A DNA stretch of 60,996 bases from Anaerolineaceae bacterium (GTDB taxonomy: Bacteria; Chloroflexota; Anaerolineae; Anaerolineales; Anaerolineaceae): positions 1 through 60,996 of the forward strand of contig WOYY01000046.1 in the NCBI GenBank assembly GCA_011620555.1. The letters run 5' to 3'. Under the pieces are notes generated by a model, which saw only the letters and a list, made by a program, of their open reading frames with translations, was not told the DNA's origin and did no database searches. This document shows, in pieces, positions 48,345 to 57,298 of this stretch. A program made the position numbers and the translations under genes. Numbering within the stretch: position 1 is the stretch's first letter; each line of letters opens with the position of its first letter.

Positions 48345-48373
48345 TTGACAAAGGGCTTCGATGCAAGGATAAT
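48345..48373 (+). promoter_or_regulatory. Promoter of the N-ATPase operon
   Basis: A consensus TTGACA (48345-48350), a 17-base spacer and GATAAT (48368-48373) lie about 76 bases before atpD. Confidence 0.7.
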
Positions 48374-48433: not shown

Positions 48434-50236
<1,803 letters not shown>

Positions 50237-50240
<4 letters not shown>

Positions 50241-50512
50241 GCAAAGACCCGAAATCGGATAGAGAGAAGTCTGCGCTCCTTCGTGATTTCACCAAGACAT
50301 CCCTCGGCTGGGAGCTGGCCATCCCGATCTTCGGAGGGGCTTTGTTGGGTCATTTTTTGGATAAGGCAAGCGGTTCCACATTCACCTTTATGCTGATCCT
50401 GACCCTTGTCGGGATTGCCGTTGGATATTACAACCTGATGCGTCACATCGAACTGGAAGTCTTGATGTTAAAGATCAAAAAGAAACGTCAAGAGGAGCAA
50501 CCGGACCAATGA
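50237..50512 (+). CDS. atpQ: N-ATPase AtpQ, AtpI-like membrane protein
   Basis: A 91-residue protein with two hydrophobic segments (ELAIPIFGGALLGHFLD and FMLILTLVGIAVGYYNLM) and basic ends, typical of AtpI-family assembly proteins. Position between atpC and atpR is characteristic of N-ATPase operons. It overlaps atpC (ATGA) and atpR by 4 bases. Confidence 0.9.
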
Positions 50513-50820
50513 GCGCGTGGGAATGGCCGCTTTGGATCTTGTTGGGGGGCGGGATTGCTCTGCTCTTTCTAAACACCCAGAAATGGTCCGTCCAACAGAT
50601 CGCGCCGGGAAAGCCCTTTATCAGTCAAGTGATTATATTGGGCGGCAGCCTAATCCGCTGGTTGCTGATCGCACTGATCCTCGTGCTTGCGCTCAAGCGA
50701 TCTGCTGTGGCTGCACTGGTTTTCTTTGCGGCATTCATGATCGCCCGGATCGTTATCCTGTTTGTCTGGGAAAGACAATGGCGGTTAACTGGCATTCAAA
50801 CCAATAGTCAGAAGGATTAG
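50509..50820 (+). CDS. atpR: N-ATPase AtpR membrane protein
   Basis: A 103-residue protein with about three membrane segments (WPLWILLGGGIALLFL, LIRWLLIALILVLALK, SAVAALVFFAAFMIARIVI). The conserved basic residues KRSAV and IARIV at membrane edges fit AtpR, found only in N-ATPase operons and thought to help c-ring assembly. Overlapping start with atpQ. Confidence 0.88.
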   Translation: MSAWEWPLWILLGGGIALLFLNTQKWSVQQIAPGKPFISQVIILGGSLIRWLLIALILVLALKRSAVAALVFFAAFMIARIVILFVWERQWRLTGIQTNSQKD

Positions 50821-50825
50821 TTTAT

Positions 50826-51512
50826 ATGGAGGCAATAGCCCCCCAGGTCATTTTCTATCTTTTTGGGTTACCCATCACGGACACGGTCGTGTCCACCTGG
50901 GTTATGATGGTCGTTCTCATCATTGCCGCCCTTATCATCAGAAAATATGCCCCGCATATCGGTGAATTCATCATTGAGATGATTAACAGCATTGTCGCAT
51001 CCGTGATGCCCGAGGATGCCCGGGTGATCAAATATCTTCCCTTCCTCGGCACATTGGCGCTGTTTCTCGTGCTCGGAAATATCTTCAGTATCTTTCCGCT
51101 GATGGTCTCGCCGACAGCCAACATCAACACCACTTTCGCTCTCGCCATGCTGGTCTTTTTTGCCGTTCATTACTATGGCGTCCGAGAAAAAGGAGTGTGG
51201 CGATATATCAAGGACACTGCCACACCGATTTTCGTTTTCCCCCTCGAAATCATCAGCCAGCTTTCCCGCACCCTCTCGCTGACCATCCGTTTATTTGGCA
51301 ACATCCTCAGCACGGACCTGGTCGTGGCGATCATCTTCTCGCTGATCCCCTTCATCGTTCCGCTACCGCTGATGGTCCTGGGGATGCTGACGGGCGTCCT
51401 CCAGGCCTATATTTTTACCGTTTTAGCCTCACTCTATATCGCATCCGCAATCGAAATTTCAGATGTCGAAAAAGAACGTCGTCAAATGAAACAGGAATTG
51501 AAGGAATCTTAG
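50826..51512 (+). CDS. atpB: N-ATPase Fo a subunit
   Basis: The 228-residue stator channel subunit of Fo. The essential Arg is in SLTIRLFGNILSTD (about residue 156). It has five or more membrane segments and the conserved Asn and Gln/Glu-rich helices of the a subunit. AAGGA precedes ATG. It follows atpR by 5 bases. Channel residues fit either H+ or Na+ coupling, and the c subunit is more informative. Confidence 0.95.
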   Translation: MEAIAPQVIFYLFGLPITDTVVSTWVMMVVLIIAALIIRKYAPHIGEFIIEMINSIVASVMPEDARVIKYLPFLGTLALFLVLGNIFSIFPLMVSPTANINTTFALAMLVFFAVHYYGVREKGVWRYIKDTATPIFVFPLEIISQLSRTLSLTIRLFGNILSTDLVVAIIFSLIPFIVPLPLMVLGMLTGVLQAYIFTVLASLYIASAIEISDVEKERRQMKQELKES

Positions 51513-51538: not shown

Positions 51539-51814
51539 ATGTGGCAATTAGACTCTGGAACCATCGTAACCCTCATCACCATCATGTTTTCTGTTGGAGG
51601 CATCGTTTTAGGCTCCATCGTCCCAGCATTAATGGAGGGCAAAGCCGTCCAAAAAGCCCTGGAAGGGATGACCCGCCAGCCTGATGCGGCCAATGACCTG
51701 CGGACCACCCTGCTGATCTCCATGGCGTTGTTGGAATCGACCGCGATCTATTCATTGCTTGTTGTACTGATCTTGATCTTCGGGAATCCCCTAATCAGCC
51801 AATTCTTTGGATGA
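51539..51814 (+). CDS. atpE: N-ATPase Fo c subunit with Na+-binding signature
   Basis: A 91-residue c subunit (two helices). The ion site is Glu66-Ser67-Thr68 and Tyr71 in LLESTAIYS, the pattern of Na+-binding c rings. In helix 1 Glu33 (PALMEGKAV) replaces the Gln32 of the Ilyobacter ring, giving the two-carboxylate site seen in many N-ATPases. The loop MTRQPDA is conserved. AAAGGA precedes ATG. Sequence predicts Na+ coupling. H+ coupling cannot be fully excluded. Confidence 0.95.
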   Translation: MWQLDSGTIVTLITIMFSVGGIVLGSIVPALMEGKAVQKALEGMTRQPDAANDLRTTLLISMALLESTAIYSLLVVLILIFGNPLISQFFG

Positions 51815-51835: not shown

Positions 51836-52621
51836 ATGATAAATATTGAAATTGTAACGATCCTCGCCCAGGTCATCAACTTCCTGATTCTGGCGGTCGC
51901 ACTCTATTTCATCCTCTTCAAACCGATCGTCAAACAGATGAACGACCGGGCTGCGGAGCGGGAGGCCTTGTTGGAAGAAGCGAGGCTTGAGGAAGCAGAG
52001 GCCGCGGTGAAGGTCGAAGAGATCAACCAACGGCTGGCTGCCATTGATACAGAAATTGAGGCCCGGCTTCAGGAAGCCTACCAGAAGGCCCAGGAGCAAA
52101 GCGAATCCTTACTGGAGGCCACTCATCTGGAAGCCGAACAAATCCTCAGAGAAGCCGAGCGAGAGGCCCAGAAAAGGCAGCAGCAGGAGGTCGCCCAATT
52201 GCAGGAAGAGTTGGTCGACTCGATCCTGGATATCTCCGGCCAGGTCCTCGCCAAAGCCGCGCCGGAAGTCATCCACGACAATTTTATTGACGAGCTGACC
52301 CATGAGATCTGGGAGCTTGGCAAAACCGATATGCGCCAGGTGCATGCGATCCGCGAATCACTCACGGGCCGCACGCCGACGGTCTTCGTCACCTCCGCCA
52401 AGGAATTGACCCCCGACCAGCAGCGCAACCTCATCCGCACTTTCAGCGCGCTCGCCGACAGCAACGTGAACATGGAGATCAAGATTGACCCCAAATTGAT
52501 CACCGGCATTCGCGTCCGGATGGGTGATCTCGTGGTTGAAAACACCTTGGCCATGGAACTGACCGAACTCAAATCAGACGTCGCAGCAGCCCTGGAGGAA
52601 AACCTTGATGGAAAGCCGTAA
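51836..52621 (+). CDS. atpF: N-ATPase b subunit fused to a delta-like domain
   Basis: A 261-residue fusion protein. An N-terminal membrane anchor (VTILAQVINFLILAVALYFI, residues about 5-24) leads to a long charged coiled coil (about 30-140), then a C-terminal delta-like domain (about 150-261, with SAKELTPDQQRNLI and GIRVRMGDLVVENTL). There is no separate atpH, as normal for N-ATPases. AAGGAG precedes ATG. It overlaps atpA by 14 bases. Confidence 0.93.
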   Translation: MINIEIVTILAQVINFLILAVALYFILFKPIVKQMNDRAAEREALLEEARLEEAEAAVKVEEINQRLAAIDTEIEARLQEAYQKAQEQSESLLEATHLEAEQILREAEREAQKRQQQEVAQLQEELVDSILDISGQVLAKAAPEVIHDNFIDELTHEIWELGKTDMRQVHAIRESLTGRTPTVFVTSAKELTPDQQRNLIRTFSALADSNVNMEIKIDPKLITGIRVRMGDLVVENTLAMELTELKSDVAAALEENLDGKP

Positions 52622-54287
52622 TCCCCGCTCCTCCGGGGAGATGAACAAAATCCTTGATGCTTTTTCAGAGGAACTTGAAAGTCGCGCCAAGCTCGCGCCC
52701 TCCACGGATTCATTCATCCAATCCGTTCGGGAAAAGGTCGCCAGGGAAGACTCTCCTCTCGCCAAGAAAAAGATCAGGAAACTGATCTCAACCCTTGAAG
52801 AGCAGTCCACCGATCTGCCCAACCGGGTCCGTTTCCGTGATGTGGGCACCGTCCAGCACATCGGCAACGGGATCGCCACGGTCTCCGGCCTGCCGAATGT
52901 CAGCATTGACGAGATCGTCACCTTCCCCACCGGCGTGGAAGGCATGGCGCTGAACCTGGAACAAAAGCATGTGGACCTGATCATGCTCGGCACCGAAAAA
53001 GGCATCCGGGGCGGCGATCTGGTCCAGGCCACCGGCAAAAGGCTGAGCATCCCTGTCGGCGGTGCATTCCTCGGTCGGATCGTGGACCCACTGGGCACCC
53101 CCCTGGACAACGACACGCCGATCGAGATCAGCGAATACCGCTATCTCTCCCGAACAGCCCCCGGCGTGATCCACCGGTCCCCGGTGAACGAATCGCTCTT
53201 GACCGGCACCAAACTCATTGACGCGCTTTTCCCGATTGGCCGAGGCCAGCGGGAACTGATCCTTGGTGACCGCCAGACCGGCAAAACAACTCTGGCAATT
53301 GACGCCATTCTCAGTCAAAAGCAAAGCGATGTCCGCTGCATCTATGTGGCGATTGGTCAGAAGAAATCTTCCACCCTCTCCGTCATCAACACGCTTCGCA
53401 AGCATGAGATGTTAAGCCGGACGGCTATTATTATCAGCAGTTCGGATGACCAACCCGCGCTGAGATACCTGGCGCCCTATGCCGGGATGACCCTGGCGGA
53501 ATATTTCCTCGACCTTGGGCTGGATGTCCTGGTCGTCTTTGACGACCTCACGAAACATGCCGATGCCTACCGCGAGCTGAGCCTGCTGCTCAGGCGCCCG
53601 CCGGGGCGGGAAGCCTACCCCGGAGACATCTTTTATCTGCATTCCCGCCTGTTGGAACGCGCCTGCAAACTCAATGCCGAAGAAGGGGGCGGATCGATCA
53701 CTGCCCTGCCGATCGCAGCCACCCAAAACGGCAATATCTCCGGCTATATTCCCACCAACCTGATTTCGATCACGGACGGGCAGATCGTGCTGGATACCAA
53801 CCTCTTTAACCAGGGGCAAAAGCCGGCAATTGATATCGGCCAGTCTGTCTCCCGGGTGGGCGGCGCGGCGCAGAAACCAGCCATCCGCGAACTTGTCGGA
53901 GACCTGAAACTGGAATTGTCCCAATACCAGGAAGTCGAACACTTCACCCGCTTCGGCACTGAAGTGGATGAGGCAACCCGCAAACAGATCCAAAAAGGTC
54001 AGCGTATTTTAGCGGTCCTCAAGCAAAAGCCCCACGAGCCGGCTTCTTTCGTCAGCACCGTGGTCATCCTCTATGCCCTCAATCACGGGTTTATCGACCG
54101 GATTCCGATCCGGCAAATCCAGAAATTCAAGACCAGGCTCGTTGCCCATTTTTACGAGCATGAAGCCCAGCTGGTCAGCGAGATCGAAAAAGAGGGCGCA
54201 TTGAGCGAGAATATTGAACAGAAATTAACCCAGGTTCTCACTGAATTCAGTAAAACCTGGTTGGAAGAGAAGGGTGCGAGCTTATGA
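52608..54287 (+). CDS. atpA: N-ATPase F1 alpha subunit
   Basis: A 559-residue non-catalytic alpha subunit. A long charged N-terminal extension (about 75 residues) precedes VGTVQHIGNGIATVSGL. Walker A is GDRQTGKTTL (about 219-228). The VFDDLTKHADAYR region (about 318) and LSRVGGAAQKPAIREL (about 420) are intact. ATG 52608 is preferred over TTG 52605. Its stop overlaps the start of the PII-like gene (ATGA), linking their translation. Confidence 0.95.
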   Translation: MESRNPRSSGEMNKILDAFSEELESRAKLAPSTDSFIQSVREKVAREDSPLAKKKIRKLISTLEEQSTDLPNRVRFRDVGTVQHIGNGIATVSGLPNVSIDEIVTFPTGVEGMALNLEQKHVDLIMLGTEKGIRGGDLVQATGKRLSIPVGGAFLGRIVDPLGTPLDNDTPIEISEYRYLSRTAPGVIHRSPVNESLLTGTKLIDALFPIGRGQRELILGDRQTGKTTLAIDAILSQKQSDVRCIYVAIGQKKSSTLSVINTLRKHEMLSRTAIIISSSDDQPALRYLAPYAGMTLAEYFLDLGLDVLVVFDDLTKHADAYRELSLLLRRPPGREAYPGDIFYLHSRLLERACKLNAEEGGGSITALPIAATQNGNISGYIPTNLISITDGQIVLDTNLFNQGQKPAIDIGQSVSRVGGAAQKPAIRELVGDLKLELSQYQEVEHFTRFGTEVDEATRKQIQKGQRILAVLKQKPHEPASFVSTVVILYALNHGFIDRIPIRQIQKFKTRLVAHFYEHEAQLVSEIEKEGALSENIEQKLTQVLTEFSKTWLEEKGASL

Positions 54288-54604
54288 AGATGGTCATGGT
54301 CGTTGTCCCATCCAATAACGCGGAGCCAGTTCTGGACGCATTGATCAACGCCGGGCACACCGCCACCTATGCTGAAACCCAAGGCGGCATGCTCCGCCAG
54401 AGCCAAAAGTCTTTGTTCATCGCAGTCAAAGAGACTCAGTTGGAAGAAGTCCTGACCCTCATCAAGGAACACTGCCGGACCAGGGTGGAAATGAGTCCTC
54501 AGACCGCTGAGGACGCGCTCGCCCTAGACAGCACCGCGGTGACGGCTGACCTGGGCGGCGCCGTTGCCTTTGTCTGGGATATCGGCCGGATCGAGACCTT
54601 CTAG
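54284..54604 (+). CDS. PII-like protein of the cyclic-di-AMP receptor family (DarA/PstA-like) inside the N-ATPase operon
   Basis: A 106-residue protein whose start overlaps the atpA stop and which ends 6 bases before atpG. It matches the cyclic-di-AMP receptor family (PF06153): MKMVMVVVPSNNAEPVLDAL, the T-loop segment ETQGGMLRQSQKSLFIAV against the TTGGFLKAGNTTFMIG of PstA, then VLTLIKEHCRTR and DLGGAVAFVWDI against EVGGATVFVLPV. Gly34-Gly35 and Leu37 are kept, but Arg26, Phe36 and Asn41 of Staphylococcus PstA are Thr, Met and Gln, so ligand binding is uncertain. By position it is a candidate regulator of the ATPase (inference). It is not part of the described atpDCQRBEFAG order. Confidence 0.78.
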   Translation: MKMVMVVVPSNNAEPVLDALINAGHTATYAETQGGMLRQSQKSLFIAVKETQLEEVLTLIKEHCRTRVEMSPQTAEDALALDSTAVTADLGGAVAFVWDIGRIETF

Positions 54605-54610
54605 GAAAAA

Positions 54611-55510
54611 ATGAGTCAGTCTTACGAGCGCATTGTCGCCAGGTTGAATAATTTGCAGGCCATTGAGCCTCTTTTAGGCGCGTTGCGCACGATCTCGATG
54701 GGCACTTGGCAAATGGCTCAAAATAAGCTCAGCCGCCTGGCCGATTATCAGGAAAATTATCATCGGGTTCTGGCCCAAATCGCACCGCTCTTGAATGAAT
54801 CCGATCAAACGCGACTCCGCCCGGTTGAAAACCCGGAGGATGGCAAAATCGCCAATATCGCCCTGCTGATCGGCACCGAGCGCGGGCTTTGCGGCAGATT
54901 CAACGAAAACCTGGTGGAAAGCGCTCTGCAATGGATGAAAAGCCAGCCTGACGAAGACTTTAAAATTTGGGCTATGGGTTCCCGGATCATCAAAAGCCTT
55001 GGCAAACAGGGGATCGAACCAGTCTGGTCCGAACCGCTGAATGCCAACAGCCTGGGGTCCTACCGCCAGGCCTATCTGATAACCCAGCAATGGGCGCAGA
55101 AAGTTGAGAACGCCGAAATCAGCCGCTTGACAGTCCTCCATCAGAAGGCAAAAGGGGAAGGCAAAGTGCAATTCACAGCTGTGAACTTGTTCCCCTTTGA
55201 CCTGAAACTGGACAAAACAAAGCCTCAGGCCGAAGACCTCCCCTGGCCCCCGCCGATCATTGAAACTGATCCGGAGGGCATCTACCAGCAGATCAGAGGG
55301 CACTTCATTGCATCCACCTTCTACCAGGCGCTGCTCGAATCGGCGATTGCGGAGCATTCCTCAAGATTCATCCTGCTGGAAGAGGCAAAAAAGAATACGG
55401 ATGACATCATCACCGACCTGAATCGGGATTTAAATATTGAACGAAAACGAAAAATTACTCGCGACATGCAAGAACTTGCGATTGGGGCTGGATTAATAGA
55501 TAATAAATAG
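54611..55510 (+). CDS. atpG: N-ATPase F1 gamma subunit
   Basis: The 299-residue central-shaft gamma subunit. N- and C-terminal coiled-coil helices are clear (ERIVARLNNLQAIEPLLGALRTISMGTWQMA and the end EERKRKITRDMQELAIGAGLI-type region, the latter read as IERKRKITRDMQEL). The Rossmann-like middle (ALLIGTERGLCGRFNENLV) is standard. Slightly divergent, as in N-ATPases. It ends the ATPase genes, and the AraB-like gene begins 43 bases later with no terminator between. Confidence 0.94.
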   Translation: MSQSYERIVARLNNLQAIEPLLGALRTISMGTWQMAQNKLSRLADYQENYHRVLAQIAPLLNESDQTRLRPVENPEDGKIANIALLIGTERGLCGRFNENLVESALQWMKSQPDEDFKIWAMGSRIIKSLGKQGIEPVWSEPLNANSLGSYRQAYLITQQWAQKVENAEISRLTVLHQKAKGEGKVQFTAVNLFPFDLKLDKTKPQAEDLPWPPPIIETDPEGIYQQIRGHFIASTFYQALLESAIAEHSSRFILLEEAKKNTDDIITDLNRDLNIERKRKITRDMQELAIGAGLIDNK

Positions 55511-55553: not shown

Positions 55554-57245
55554 TTGAGTGGAAAGAAGAAATTCACCATTGGCATCGAATTTGGCAACGA
55601 AACGGTTACTGCGCTTCTGGTGAATGTCAGTAATGGGAATTGCATCAACGCGGCCACCTATCATTACACCCACGGAATCATTACTGAAAAGCTACCCGAA
55701 ACGGATGTGAAATTAGACCCCGGTTGGGCTTTACATCACCCCCGGGATTACATCACCGCCCTCAAGCGGACGGTTCCCCAACTTCTAAAGGGCAATCCAG
55801 TCGATGCAGACCAAATCATCGGGATCGGCATCAGTTTTGCGGATTCAACCCTGATCCCCACCACTTCCGACGGCACGCCCCTGGCGCTGCTAGAAGACTA
55901 CAAAGACAATCCCAACGCCTGGCCGAAGGCCGGCCGGCACACCGCGGCCAAGGACAAAGCCAACCAGATCACCCAGCTGGCAGCCGAACGGTTTGAGACA
56001 TTCCTCGACCGGTATGGCGGCCAAATCAATGCGGAATGGTTTTTTCCAAAAGTCTGGGAGACCTACGAGGAATCCTCCTCAATTTATCACGCCGCTGACC
56101 GGCTGATTGAGGGCTGTGACTGGGTCACCTGGCAGCTGACCGGGGTTGAATCCAGGAGCATTGCAGCCGCGGGATATAAAGCGCTCTGGTCGAAAACCGA
56201 AGGCTTTCCCCTCGAAACTTTTTTTGGCTCAATGGCTCCGGACCTGGCGAATGTCATTGACGACAAAATGCTGAGGGAGATCGCGCCCCTCGGGCAGCAG
56301 GTGGGCGAACTCACTGAGGAAGCCGCCCGCTGGATGAAGCTCCCGCCCGGCATCCCTGTGACCACCGGCACCTTGAACAACCAGGCAGCCGTCCCCGCCA
56401 CTGGCGTGGTGGAGCCAGGCAATATGGCTATCCTCCTCGGAACCCGCTTTGTTCATCTGATTCTCTCGGATAAGGAACACCGAATTCCAGGCATGGTCGG
56501 CATGGTGGAGGATGGGATCGTTCCCGGCCACATTGGCTACGAAGCCGGTCAAGCCAGCGGAGGCAATCATTTTGCCTGGTTCATCCAAAATGCAGTCCCC
56601 GAGCAATACGCCAGAGAAGCCCGAAGGAAAAAACAGAGCATCTTTAATTGGATGGAAAGAAAAGCTGCCGCCCTGGAACCGGCCGAATCCGGTCTGATTG
56701 CGCTGGACTGGTGGAATGGCAACCGCAGCATCCTGGTGGATGAAGACCTTTCCGGGCTGATCCTGGGCTACGACCTCCAGACCAAACCAGAAGAGATCTA
56801 CCGGGCCATTCTGGAAGCGACCGCCTATGGCACCCGTAAGATCATCGAGACCTTCATCGCCAGCGGCGTCCCGATCAATGAGATCATCCTCACCGGCGGG
56901 GCGCCCATGCAAAACCAATTGCTGTTGAACATCCTCGCCAACGTGACCGGCATGGAGATCAAGGTCGCCAATTGCCCCCATTCATCCTCAATGGGCGCGG
57001 CTATGTATGCCGCAGTTGCCGCGGGAGAAGCCCGGGGCGGGTATGCCTCGATCGAAGAAGCCAGCCGAAATATGGCCCACCTGATGCCAAAGACCTTCCT
57101 GCCAAACAACAACGACAAGAAGGTTTATAACCGCTTGTATTCGGAATATACCCTGCTCCACGACTATTTCGGTTACGGCTATAATGACGCCATGAAACGG
57201 CTGAAAAACCTGCGAGCCGGCATATTGGAAAAGAAACAGCGCTGA
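55554..57245 (+). CDS. AraB-like FGGY protein with altered catalytic site
   Basis: A 563-residue protein of the FGGY sugar-kinase family, closest by motifs to L-ribulokinase AraB: EWFFPK, GCDWVTWQLTG, AGYKALW, PGHIGYEAGQAS, DWWNGNRS and AAMYAAVAAG. At the catalytic position AraB has FDAH (Asp274 in Bacillus numbering); here it is LNNQ with Asn275. EAGQxxxGD reads GGNHFAWF and the LWKDHTA segment reads PKAGRHTA. So the catalytic Asp and a substrate Lys are missing, and kinase activity is doubtful. The start is TTG 55554 behind AAGGAG. It follows atpG without a terminator and precedes one. Confidence 0.82.
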   Translation: MSGKKKFTIGIEFGNETVTALLVNVSNGNCINAATYHYTHGIITEKLPETDVKLDPGWALHHPRDYITALKRTVPQLLKGNPVDADQIIGIGISFADSTLIPTTSDGTPLALLEDYKDNPNAWPKAGRHTAAKDKANQITQLAAERFETFLDRYGGQINAEWFFPKVWETYEESSSIYHAADRLIEGCDWVTWQLTGVESRSIAAAGYKALWSKTEGFPLETFFGSMAPDLANVIDDKMLREIAPLGQQVGELTEEAARWMKLPPGIPVTTGTLNNQAAVPATGVVEPGNMAILLGTRFVHLILSDKEHRIPGMVGMVEDGIVPGHIGYEAGQASGGNHFAWFIQNAVPEQYAREARRKKQSIFNWMERKAAALEPAESGLIALDWWNGNRSILVDEDLSGLILGYDLQTKPEEIYRAILEATAYGTRKIIETFIASGVPINEIILTGGAPMQNQLLLNILANVTGMEIKVANCPHSSSMGAAMYAAVAAGEARGGYASIEEASRNMAHLMPKTFLPNNNDKKVYNRLYSEYTLLHDYFGYGYNDAMKRLKNLRAGILEKKQR

Positions 57246-57263: not shown

Positions 57264-57298
57264 AGCCACCGTTCCCACAAAAGGACGGTGGCTTTTTT
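57264..57298 (+). terminator. Terminator after the AraB-like gene (end of ATPase transcript)
   Basis: AGCCACCGT / ACGGTGGCT form a 9-base perfect stem followed by a TTTTT run, 19 bases after the stop codon. Confidence 0.9.

Follow-up and report, generated by a model that had tools for sequence, protein, structure and literature searches.

The window (the entire 60,996-nucleotide stretch of DNA that we analysed) carries on its forward strand an operon for an F-type ATPase. The operon opens with atpD (beta subunit, 48449..49894) and continues with atpC (epsilon subunit, 49881..50240; PF02823), an atpQ-like gene (50237..50512; ATPase_gene1, PF09527, 57 bits), a gene for an atpR-like small membrane protein (50509..50820), atpB (a subunit, 50826..51512; PF00119), atpE (c subunit, 51539..51814; PF00137 and TIGR01260), atpF (51836..52621), which encodes a b subunit with a C-terminal OSCP (delta) domain (PF00430 and PF00213), atpA (alpha subunit, 52605..54287), a gene of the DarA/PstA family (darA, 54284..54604) and atpG (gamma subunit, 54611..55510; PF00231, 138 bits). 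The last gene is an araB homologue at 55554..57245, whose product we refer to as the operon AraB. Both atpD and atpA were assigned by profile matches; atpR was named by position, its PF03899 score of 20.9 bits lying below the cut-off of 25.1. A promoter-like site on the same strand precedes atpD (48345..48373; TTGACA-17-GATAAT, scoring 11/12), in a scan that found eight sites against 6.9 expected by chance.

According to the available text on N-type ATPases (PMC5376962), their operons follow the order atpDCQRBEFAG, and the present operon matches that order, with the beta and epsilon genes first and Q and R (the latter by position) inserted. Unlike an N-type operon, however, it has darA before atpG and araB after it, and its products score below the cut-offs of the alt_F1F0 NCBIfam models (beta 585.2 against 752, alpha 610.7 against 750.5, gamma 83 against 282.35, b 108.7 against 224.7, a 161.7 against 302.1 and c 77.2 against 130.85). 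The window genome also has a second ATPase operon (G000 contig C77, L157), which has a like gene order, no darA match and a DUF1622 gene after it. In one relative, G014 (98% complete), no F-type alpha match other than that of the araB-containing operon was obtained at E 1e-60.

The araB reading frame encodes 563 amino acids from a TTG start, with AAGGAG 8 nucleotides upstream. It follows atpG after a gap of 43 nucleotides that holds no + strand terminator, as the first-pass annotation had stated; an intrinsic terminator lies instead just 3' of araB (57264..57293, + strand; an 11-pair stem and a T tail), where it likely marks the operon end. This is the strongest + strand terminator in the scanned region, the other two (50546 and 57351) being weak. 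Judging from spacing and terminator position, atpG and araB are likely co-transcribed. A promoter-like site before araB (55476-55504) is weak, scoring 9/12, and such sites occur at chance level.

Profile searches found both FGGY domains in the protein (PF00370 and PF02782), and it exceeds the cut-offs of NF003154 (598.8 bits against 428) and TIGR01234 (594.1 against 583.25). Its top relative in the PDB by far is the L-ribulokinase of Bacillus halodurans, 3qdk (609.5 bits, E 4.7e-182, residues 5-555, 48% identity); the second match, 3gg4, reaches 105.5 bits. Similarity to ribulokinase over the whole length, as first read from the letters, is borne out by these matches. An AlphaFold2 model, computed from a 27-row alignment (the window protein and 26 of the best 80 loci from a pattern scan), has a pLDDT of 88.5 and a pTM of 0.89, with segment 387-400 below 50, and a Foldseek search with this model ranks 3qdk first (TM 0.92, 48% identity). 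The structure prediction that the first-pass annotation had proposed thus gives a predicted fold of two FGGY domains, actin-like, as in 3qdk.

Inspection of the active site, however, reveals that many of the residues that define this enzyme are gone. Alignment with 3qdk shows NVDAH changed to TLNNQ, with Asn275 (codon 56376..56378, + strand) replacing the catalytic Asp (3qdk Asp274, SePSK Asp221), VGD changed to GGN (Asn338, 56565..56567), and LWKHHAAQ changed to AGRHTAAK, with Gly127 and Arg128 for Trp and Lys. All three sites had been picked out correctly at the outset as changed functional positions, but the count was too low: at least seven further changes accompany them (Asp to Glu12, Thr to Asn15, Arg to Thr19, Asp to Ser94, Thr to Ala96, Cys to Ser98 and GTS to GTR). 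In the DxGT phosphate/metal motif, Glu12 and Asn15 (codons 12-15, 55587..55598) take the place of Asp and Thr (SePSK Asp8 and Thr11). Relative to 3qdk, the protein is without the catalytic Asp, the DxGT motif, the Ser of the second phosphate loop and the Trp-Lys pair; relative to an ordinary AraB, it sits in an ATPase operon and in a genome that has no AraA match.

We placed these changes in an alignment of 105 rows, comprising 12 operon-linked proteins, 92 other AraB proteins and L027, which at 33% identity was aligned and left out of the counts; L002, L003, L028 and L029, distant or partial FGGY proteins, were dropped before counting. Of the 136 columns in which the 92 other rows are near-invariant, the window protein departs at 32, among them Glu12, Thr19, Ser94, Ala96, Ser98, Gly127, Arg128, Asn275, Gln277, Arg298 and Asn338. 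The Thr site of DxGT, Asn15 in the window protein, is Thr in 85 and Ser in seven of the 92. In the FGGY kinase SePSK, the substitutions D8A, T11A and D221A reduce ATP hydrolysis with D-ribulose, according to the available text (PMC4880283); the equivalents of all three residues mutated in that text are replaced in the operon AraB (Glu12, Asn15 and Asn275), where columns 12 and 15 would correspond to Asp8 and Thr11 by way of the common motif. Two of the four L-ribulose contacts that the same text gives for 3qdk (Ala96, Lys208, Asp274 and Glu329) are kept, as Lys209 and Glu330, Asp97 and Asn275 taking the place of the other two. The adenine-side GG motif is also retained. An assembly error was rejected as the source of the changes, since a nearly identical set occurs in the sister genome G009 (82% identity), which consists of two contigs.

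Orthologues were gathered from a search of 101 genomes, from a pattern scan of genome contigs, which confirmed at least 542 relatives, supplied the best 80 for use and may miss very near genomes, and from 400 genomes drawn from the order, 58 of which gave a match and 30 a readable locus. Twelve proteins form a single clade with support of 100 in three trees: the window protein, ten from genus mates (65-82% identity) and one from G054, of another genus (58%). The order atpA-darA-atpG-araB is found in all 12; among the best 80 of the at least 542 relatives from the scan, none has atp genes near araB in the DNA covered (at most 9 kb on each side, often less). One of the loci examined, L086, has a darA homologue about 4 kb from its araB.

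The first-pass annotation had named conservation of Asn275 as one check on its reading, and Asp in orthologues as evidence against it. The outcome is divided: seven of the 12 lack the Asp, having Asn (the window, G009 and G054) or Ser (G006, G012, G014 and G013) instead, but five keep it (G010, G011, G003, G015 and G001), so that its loss has not become fixed in the clade. Nearly all motifs are retained in G010, G011 and G015. The G003 protein has lost Asp92 (L059 numbering), and that of G001 has kept the catalytic Asp and lost Thr13, Arg17, the Trp-Lys pair, the Thr of GTS and one Gly of the adenine motif. Outside the clade, the equivalent of Asp274 is present in 92 of 92 AraB rows without atp genes alongside. 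Re-reading the 30 loci from the order search found nine that were operon-linked, and the remaining 21, at least five of which come from genomes already among the 92, all keep the Asp; their 19-site string varies only by Thr or Ser at one place.

How often the residue was lost depends on the tree. The operon tree (amylase, atpD, B, E, F, A, darA, atpG and ugpC; 2932 columns, 23% filled for G001) requires at least five changes of Asp state; it makes G011 (Asp) the sister of G014 (Ser) with support of 100/100 and rejects a single clade of the six Asp-less genomes of the genus (p-AU 0.0007). A tree of the operon AraB from all columns groups these six together (84/86), with two changes by our count. 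Once the motif columns are removed the group dissolves and three changes result; a clade of the six is still compatible with those data (p-AU 0.385), and neither arrangement is rejected. We did not rely on the grouping of the six rows in our first tree (SH-aLRT 95), which dissolved without the active-site columns. A single loss for all seven was rejected, as L014 lies outside the genus clade, which includes Asp-keeping rows. Because the Asp is universal outside the clade, we read the changes as losses; they would number between one and four within the genus, and would be several if the gene travelled with its operon. The phylogeny suggested in the first-pass annotation therefore places the loss inside the clade, more than once, so that the lost residues stand and a fixed trait does not. 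With outgroups added, the operon tree pairs G054 with G042, with a long-branch warning; G042 has a darA-type operon and no AraB match to the clade, and, if the pairing is real, the gene would have been gained or lost twice.

Decay of an active site could mark an early pseudogene on its way out, and the loss of functional motifs, together with drift at other near-invariant columns, is what such a gene would display. None of the 12 frames has an internal stop, however, and 196 of 563 positions are invariant across all 12 proteins. Nei-Gojobori dN/dS, computable for araB in two of six pairs (the other four being saturated), is 0.057 between the window and G009 and 0.044 between G006 and G012, both pairs consisting of proteins without the Asp. 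The corresponding window-G009 values are 0.078 for atpA, 0.189 for atpG, 0.030 for darA, 0.048 for atpD and 0.041 for ugpC, ratios that are rough because dS exceeds 1 for seven of the eight genes; atpG in G006-G012 gives 0.118. Given intact frames and low dN/dS, we rejected the pseudogene reading, which we consider highly improbable. The fastest of the eight genes compared, a set without atpC, Q, R and E, is atpG (dN/dS 0.19 for window-G009), above araB.

The decay is focused. Across the six Asp-less rows of the genus, the rate of variation at columns that are near-invariant in AraB is 0.61 times that elsewhere; in the rows of G010, G011, G003 and G015 the same ratio is 0.23, which indicates that the Asp-keeping proteins are slightly relaxed as well. 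In 5000 sextets drawn from 50 held-out Chloroflexota AraB rows, with the near-invariant columns defined on 42 non-Chloroflexota rows, the mean ratio is 0.09 and the maximum 0.21. According to these data, the protein is needed in its folded form, and its chemistry is of no consequence in the decayed members.

The kept Lys209 and Glu330 contacts, the adenine-side GG motif of the window protein and the three or four of the 12 members that look intact could be taken to mean that the protein is still an enzyme, one whose altered residues serve an FGGY kinase or phosphotransfer-like activity on another substrate. The replacements differ between lineages, however (Asn or Ser for the catalytic Asp, Glu or Asn at the N-terminal Asp, and DSD, GHQ or GSN as well as GTR for GTS), which argues for loss rather than for new conserved chemistry, and we judge this reading to be improbable. 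Because the phosphate/metal motif and the second phosphate loop are altered along with the catalytic Asp, in a gene that is intact, under purifying selection and in a fixed operon slot, the evidence supports the view that the window protein is a pseudokinase, presumably without kinase activity. Where the first-pass annotation had offered a pseudokinase or a new activity, the former holds for the window protein, with its active-site losses in an intact, selected gene; the latter finds no support here and is not needed.

The arabinose pathway offers a possible setting for this decay. The window genome (96% complete) has no AraA (PF02610) match anywhere and no AraD (TIGR00760) match above 51 bits, and the earlier statement that no arabinose genes are near can be extended to the whole genome for PF02610. 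Among the 12 genomes, AraA is found only in G010, G011 and G015 (the G015 copy being cut by a contig end), and AraD, for which the TIGR00760 cut-off is 389.1, scores 410, 406 and 388 bits in these three and at most 133 in the other nine. The same three are among the four with an intact-looking operon AraB; the fourth, G003, is 75% complete. Asp is lost in all six AraA-less genomes of 95-98% completeness, and is kept without detected AraA in G001 and G003 (66% and 75% complete). Independent contrasts between AraA and Asp state number only two (starred branches) or three, all in the same direction, a number with which significance is unreachable; when incomplete genomes are counted as AraA-less, a mean of 1.6 of three contrasts agree, none disagrees and 1.4 show no difference. 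An intact AraB also occurs in G034 (99% complete), which has no AraA match.

We considered and dropped the idea that an intact operon AraB alone supplies the ribulokinase step of the arabinose pathway, as a different FGGY kinase lies beside araA-araD in G010 and G015 and one lies beside araD in G011; the operon AraB therefore need not serve that pathway. The G010 kinase (L176:8020-9621) is a non-AraB FGGY protein that reaches no NCBIfam cut-off, and the G015 kinase (L178:7811-9445) a non-AraB FGGY protein with no NCBIfam match at E 1e-30; a non-AraB FGGY kinase beside araD-araA could be an unrecognised ribulokinase. Automatic annotation, for its part, would call the window protein an ordinary L-ribulokinase, as it passes both NF003154 and TIGR01234. 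The Asp-less L008, L013 and L014 pass NF003154 too, all three mutation-tested residues in the available SePSK text are replaced in the window protein, and its genome has no AraA; we find this reading barely credible.

The explanation that we favour, to which we assign about an even chance, is that a captured ribulokinase has been kept for a non-catalytic role, most likely an ATPase-linked one, and has decayed where its substrate is gone. An L-ribulokinase gene would have become the last gene of an atpD-C-Q-R-B-E-F-A-darA-G operon in the ancestor of the genus and G054, and its product would have acquired a further function, one that depends on the fold but not on kinase catalysis. Most likely it would bind to the ATPase or tune it in response to a ligand (a sugar, an adenine nucleotide or a partner protein). 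The active site would be largely preserved in cells that make L-ribulose; in those lacking the arabinose pathway it would have decayed, in more than one lineage, with the rest of the protein under strong purifying selection.

That the role is exercised on the ATPase is our guess, and the simplest one, because araB is the last gene before the terminator and is absent together with the alpha subunit. Seventeen genomes were compared, 16 from the genus plus G054; both the operon AraB and a close ATPase alpha subunit occur in 12 of them, and neither occurs in five. G002, G004, G005, G007 and G008, which are 69-81% complete, show no operon AraB and no F-type alpha match at E 1e-60. These five may be incomplete assemblies or a lineage without an F-type ATPase; G005 has a distant, Asp-keeping AraB elsewhere in its genome (L026). 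The protein could instead be retained for a non-catalytic role that has nothing to do with the ATPase, sharing with it only the operon promoter and a syntenic block. Amylase, DUF389 and ugpC genes flank the operon and are syntenic with the atp genes in most of the genus, so that the position next to atpG does not count as independent support for an ATPase link, and the ATPase does not need the operon AraB, because other genera have a darA-type operon without araB. The joint absence in all five alpha-less genomes, perhaps a single lineage, and the placement of the terminator after araB, with none before it, speak against such an unrelated role, which we regard as unlikely though worth weighing. 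Given a non-catalytic role, we hold the ATPase link to be a little better than even, and not more, since the genes might also be adjacent simply through synteny of the entire block; 11 of the 12 cases lie in one genus.

Action through a protein partner has precedents among FGGY kinases. Structures of LsrK with HPr (PDB 5ya0-5ya2), in which an FGGY kinase acts through protein contact, are among the Foldseek matches of our model. GlpK, regulated by EIIAGlc, is another FGGY kinase with a protein partner; both LsrK and GlpK are active enzymes, unlike the window protein, which is presumably inactive. Enzymes that have lost their activity and been retained for some other function are known, chiefly from protein kinases. 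In its available text, a paper on FGGY evolution (PMC3245297) sets out subgroups of AraB that differ in their specificity residues; the main text contains neither 'pseudo' nor 'chloroflex'. In the literature within reach, which covers subscription journals thinly, we found no report of a ribulokinase-derived dead enzyme or of one in an ATP synthase operon. The present case shows curated family models calling ribulokinase a protein whose residues make that unlikely and, with active-looking and decayed versions in one operon slot, makes the step from enzyme to non-enzyme directly testable by comparison. If the ATPase link is true, the protein would represent a new type of regulator for ATP synthase.

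The other unusual gene of the operon, darA, is more widespread. Its product belongs to the family of PII-like c-di-AMP receptors (PF06153, 61.3 bits against a cut-off of 27) and lies below the cut-off of the equivalog model NF058593 (61.5 against 140). A search of 147 genomes of the Anaerolineaceae family with the protein matched 129, many by paralogues only; the 30 best matches, from 30 genomes in nine genera, follow atpA in every case and precede atpG in 27. In 15 larger regions from seven other genera, darA likewise follows atpA, atpG is next in 13, and no araB match occurs within the DNA covered. At two loci, L159 and L160 (G164 and G166), a LacI-type regulator follows darA and no gamma subunit was found alongside.

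The PstA loop has the consensus TKLxxxGGFLxxGNTT, and Thr28, GGFL and Asn41 are the c-di-AMP contacts tested by mutation, in the available text of the PstA study (PMC4316997). Beyond the family match, the operon protein keeps Thr28 and the GG and Leu of the GGFL loop; unlike PstA as described there, the window copy has Met for Phe36 and Gln for Asn41, and its gene sits in an ATPase operon. The loop reads GGMLRQSQ in 21 of 27 aligned copies, with the Met in 24 and the last Gln in all 27. c-di-AMP is probably made in these bacteria, because a diadenylate cyclase (PF02457) is encoded in all 12 genomes; in the portion of the literature searched we found no report that sets c-di-AMP or DarA in a Chloroflexi or F-type ATPase context. 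Taken with the operon AraB, this gene suggests, tentatively and well short of an even chance, that the operon builds two sensors into its rotary ATPase: the PII-like member of the c-di-AMP receptor family, encoded between alpha and gamma, and, after gamma, a pentulose- or nucleotide-binding pseudokinase that would set ATPase activity. The kinase site would then have decayed in up to five lineages as only a sensing or docking surface was needed. The presence of darA in ATPase operons may be a more general finding than the decayed kinase beside it.
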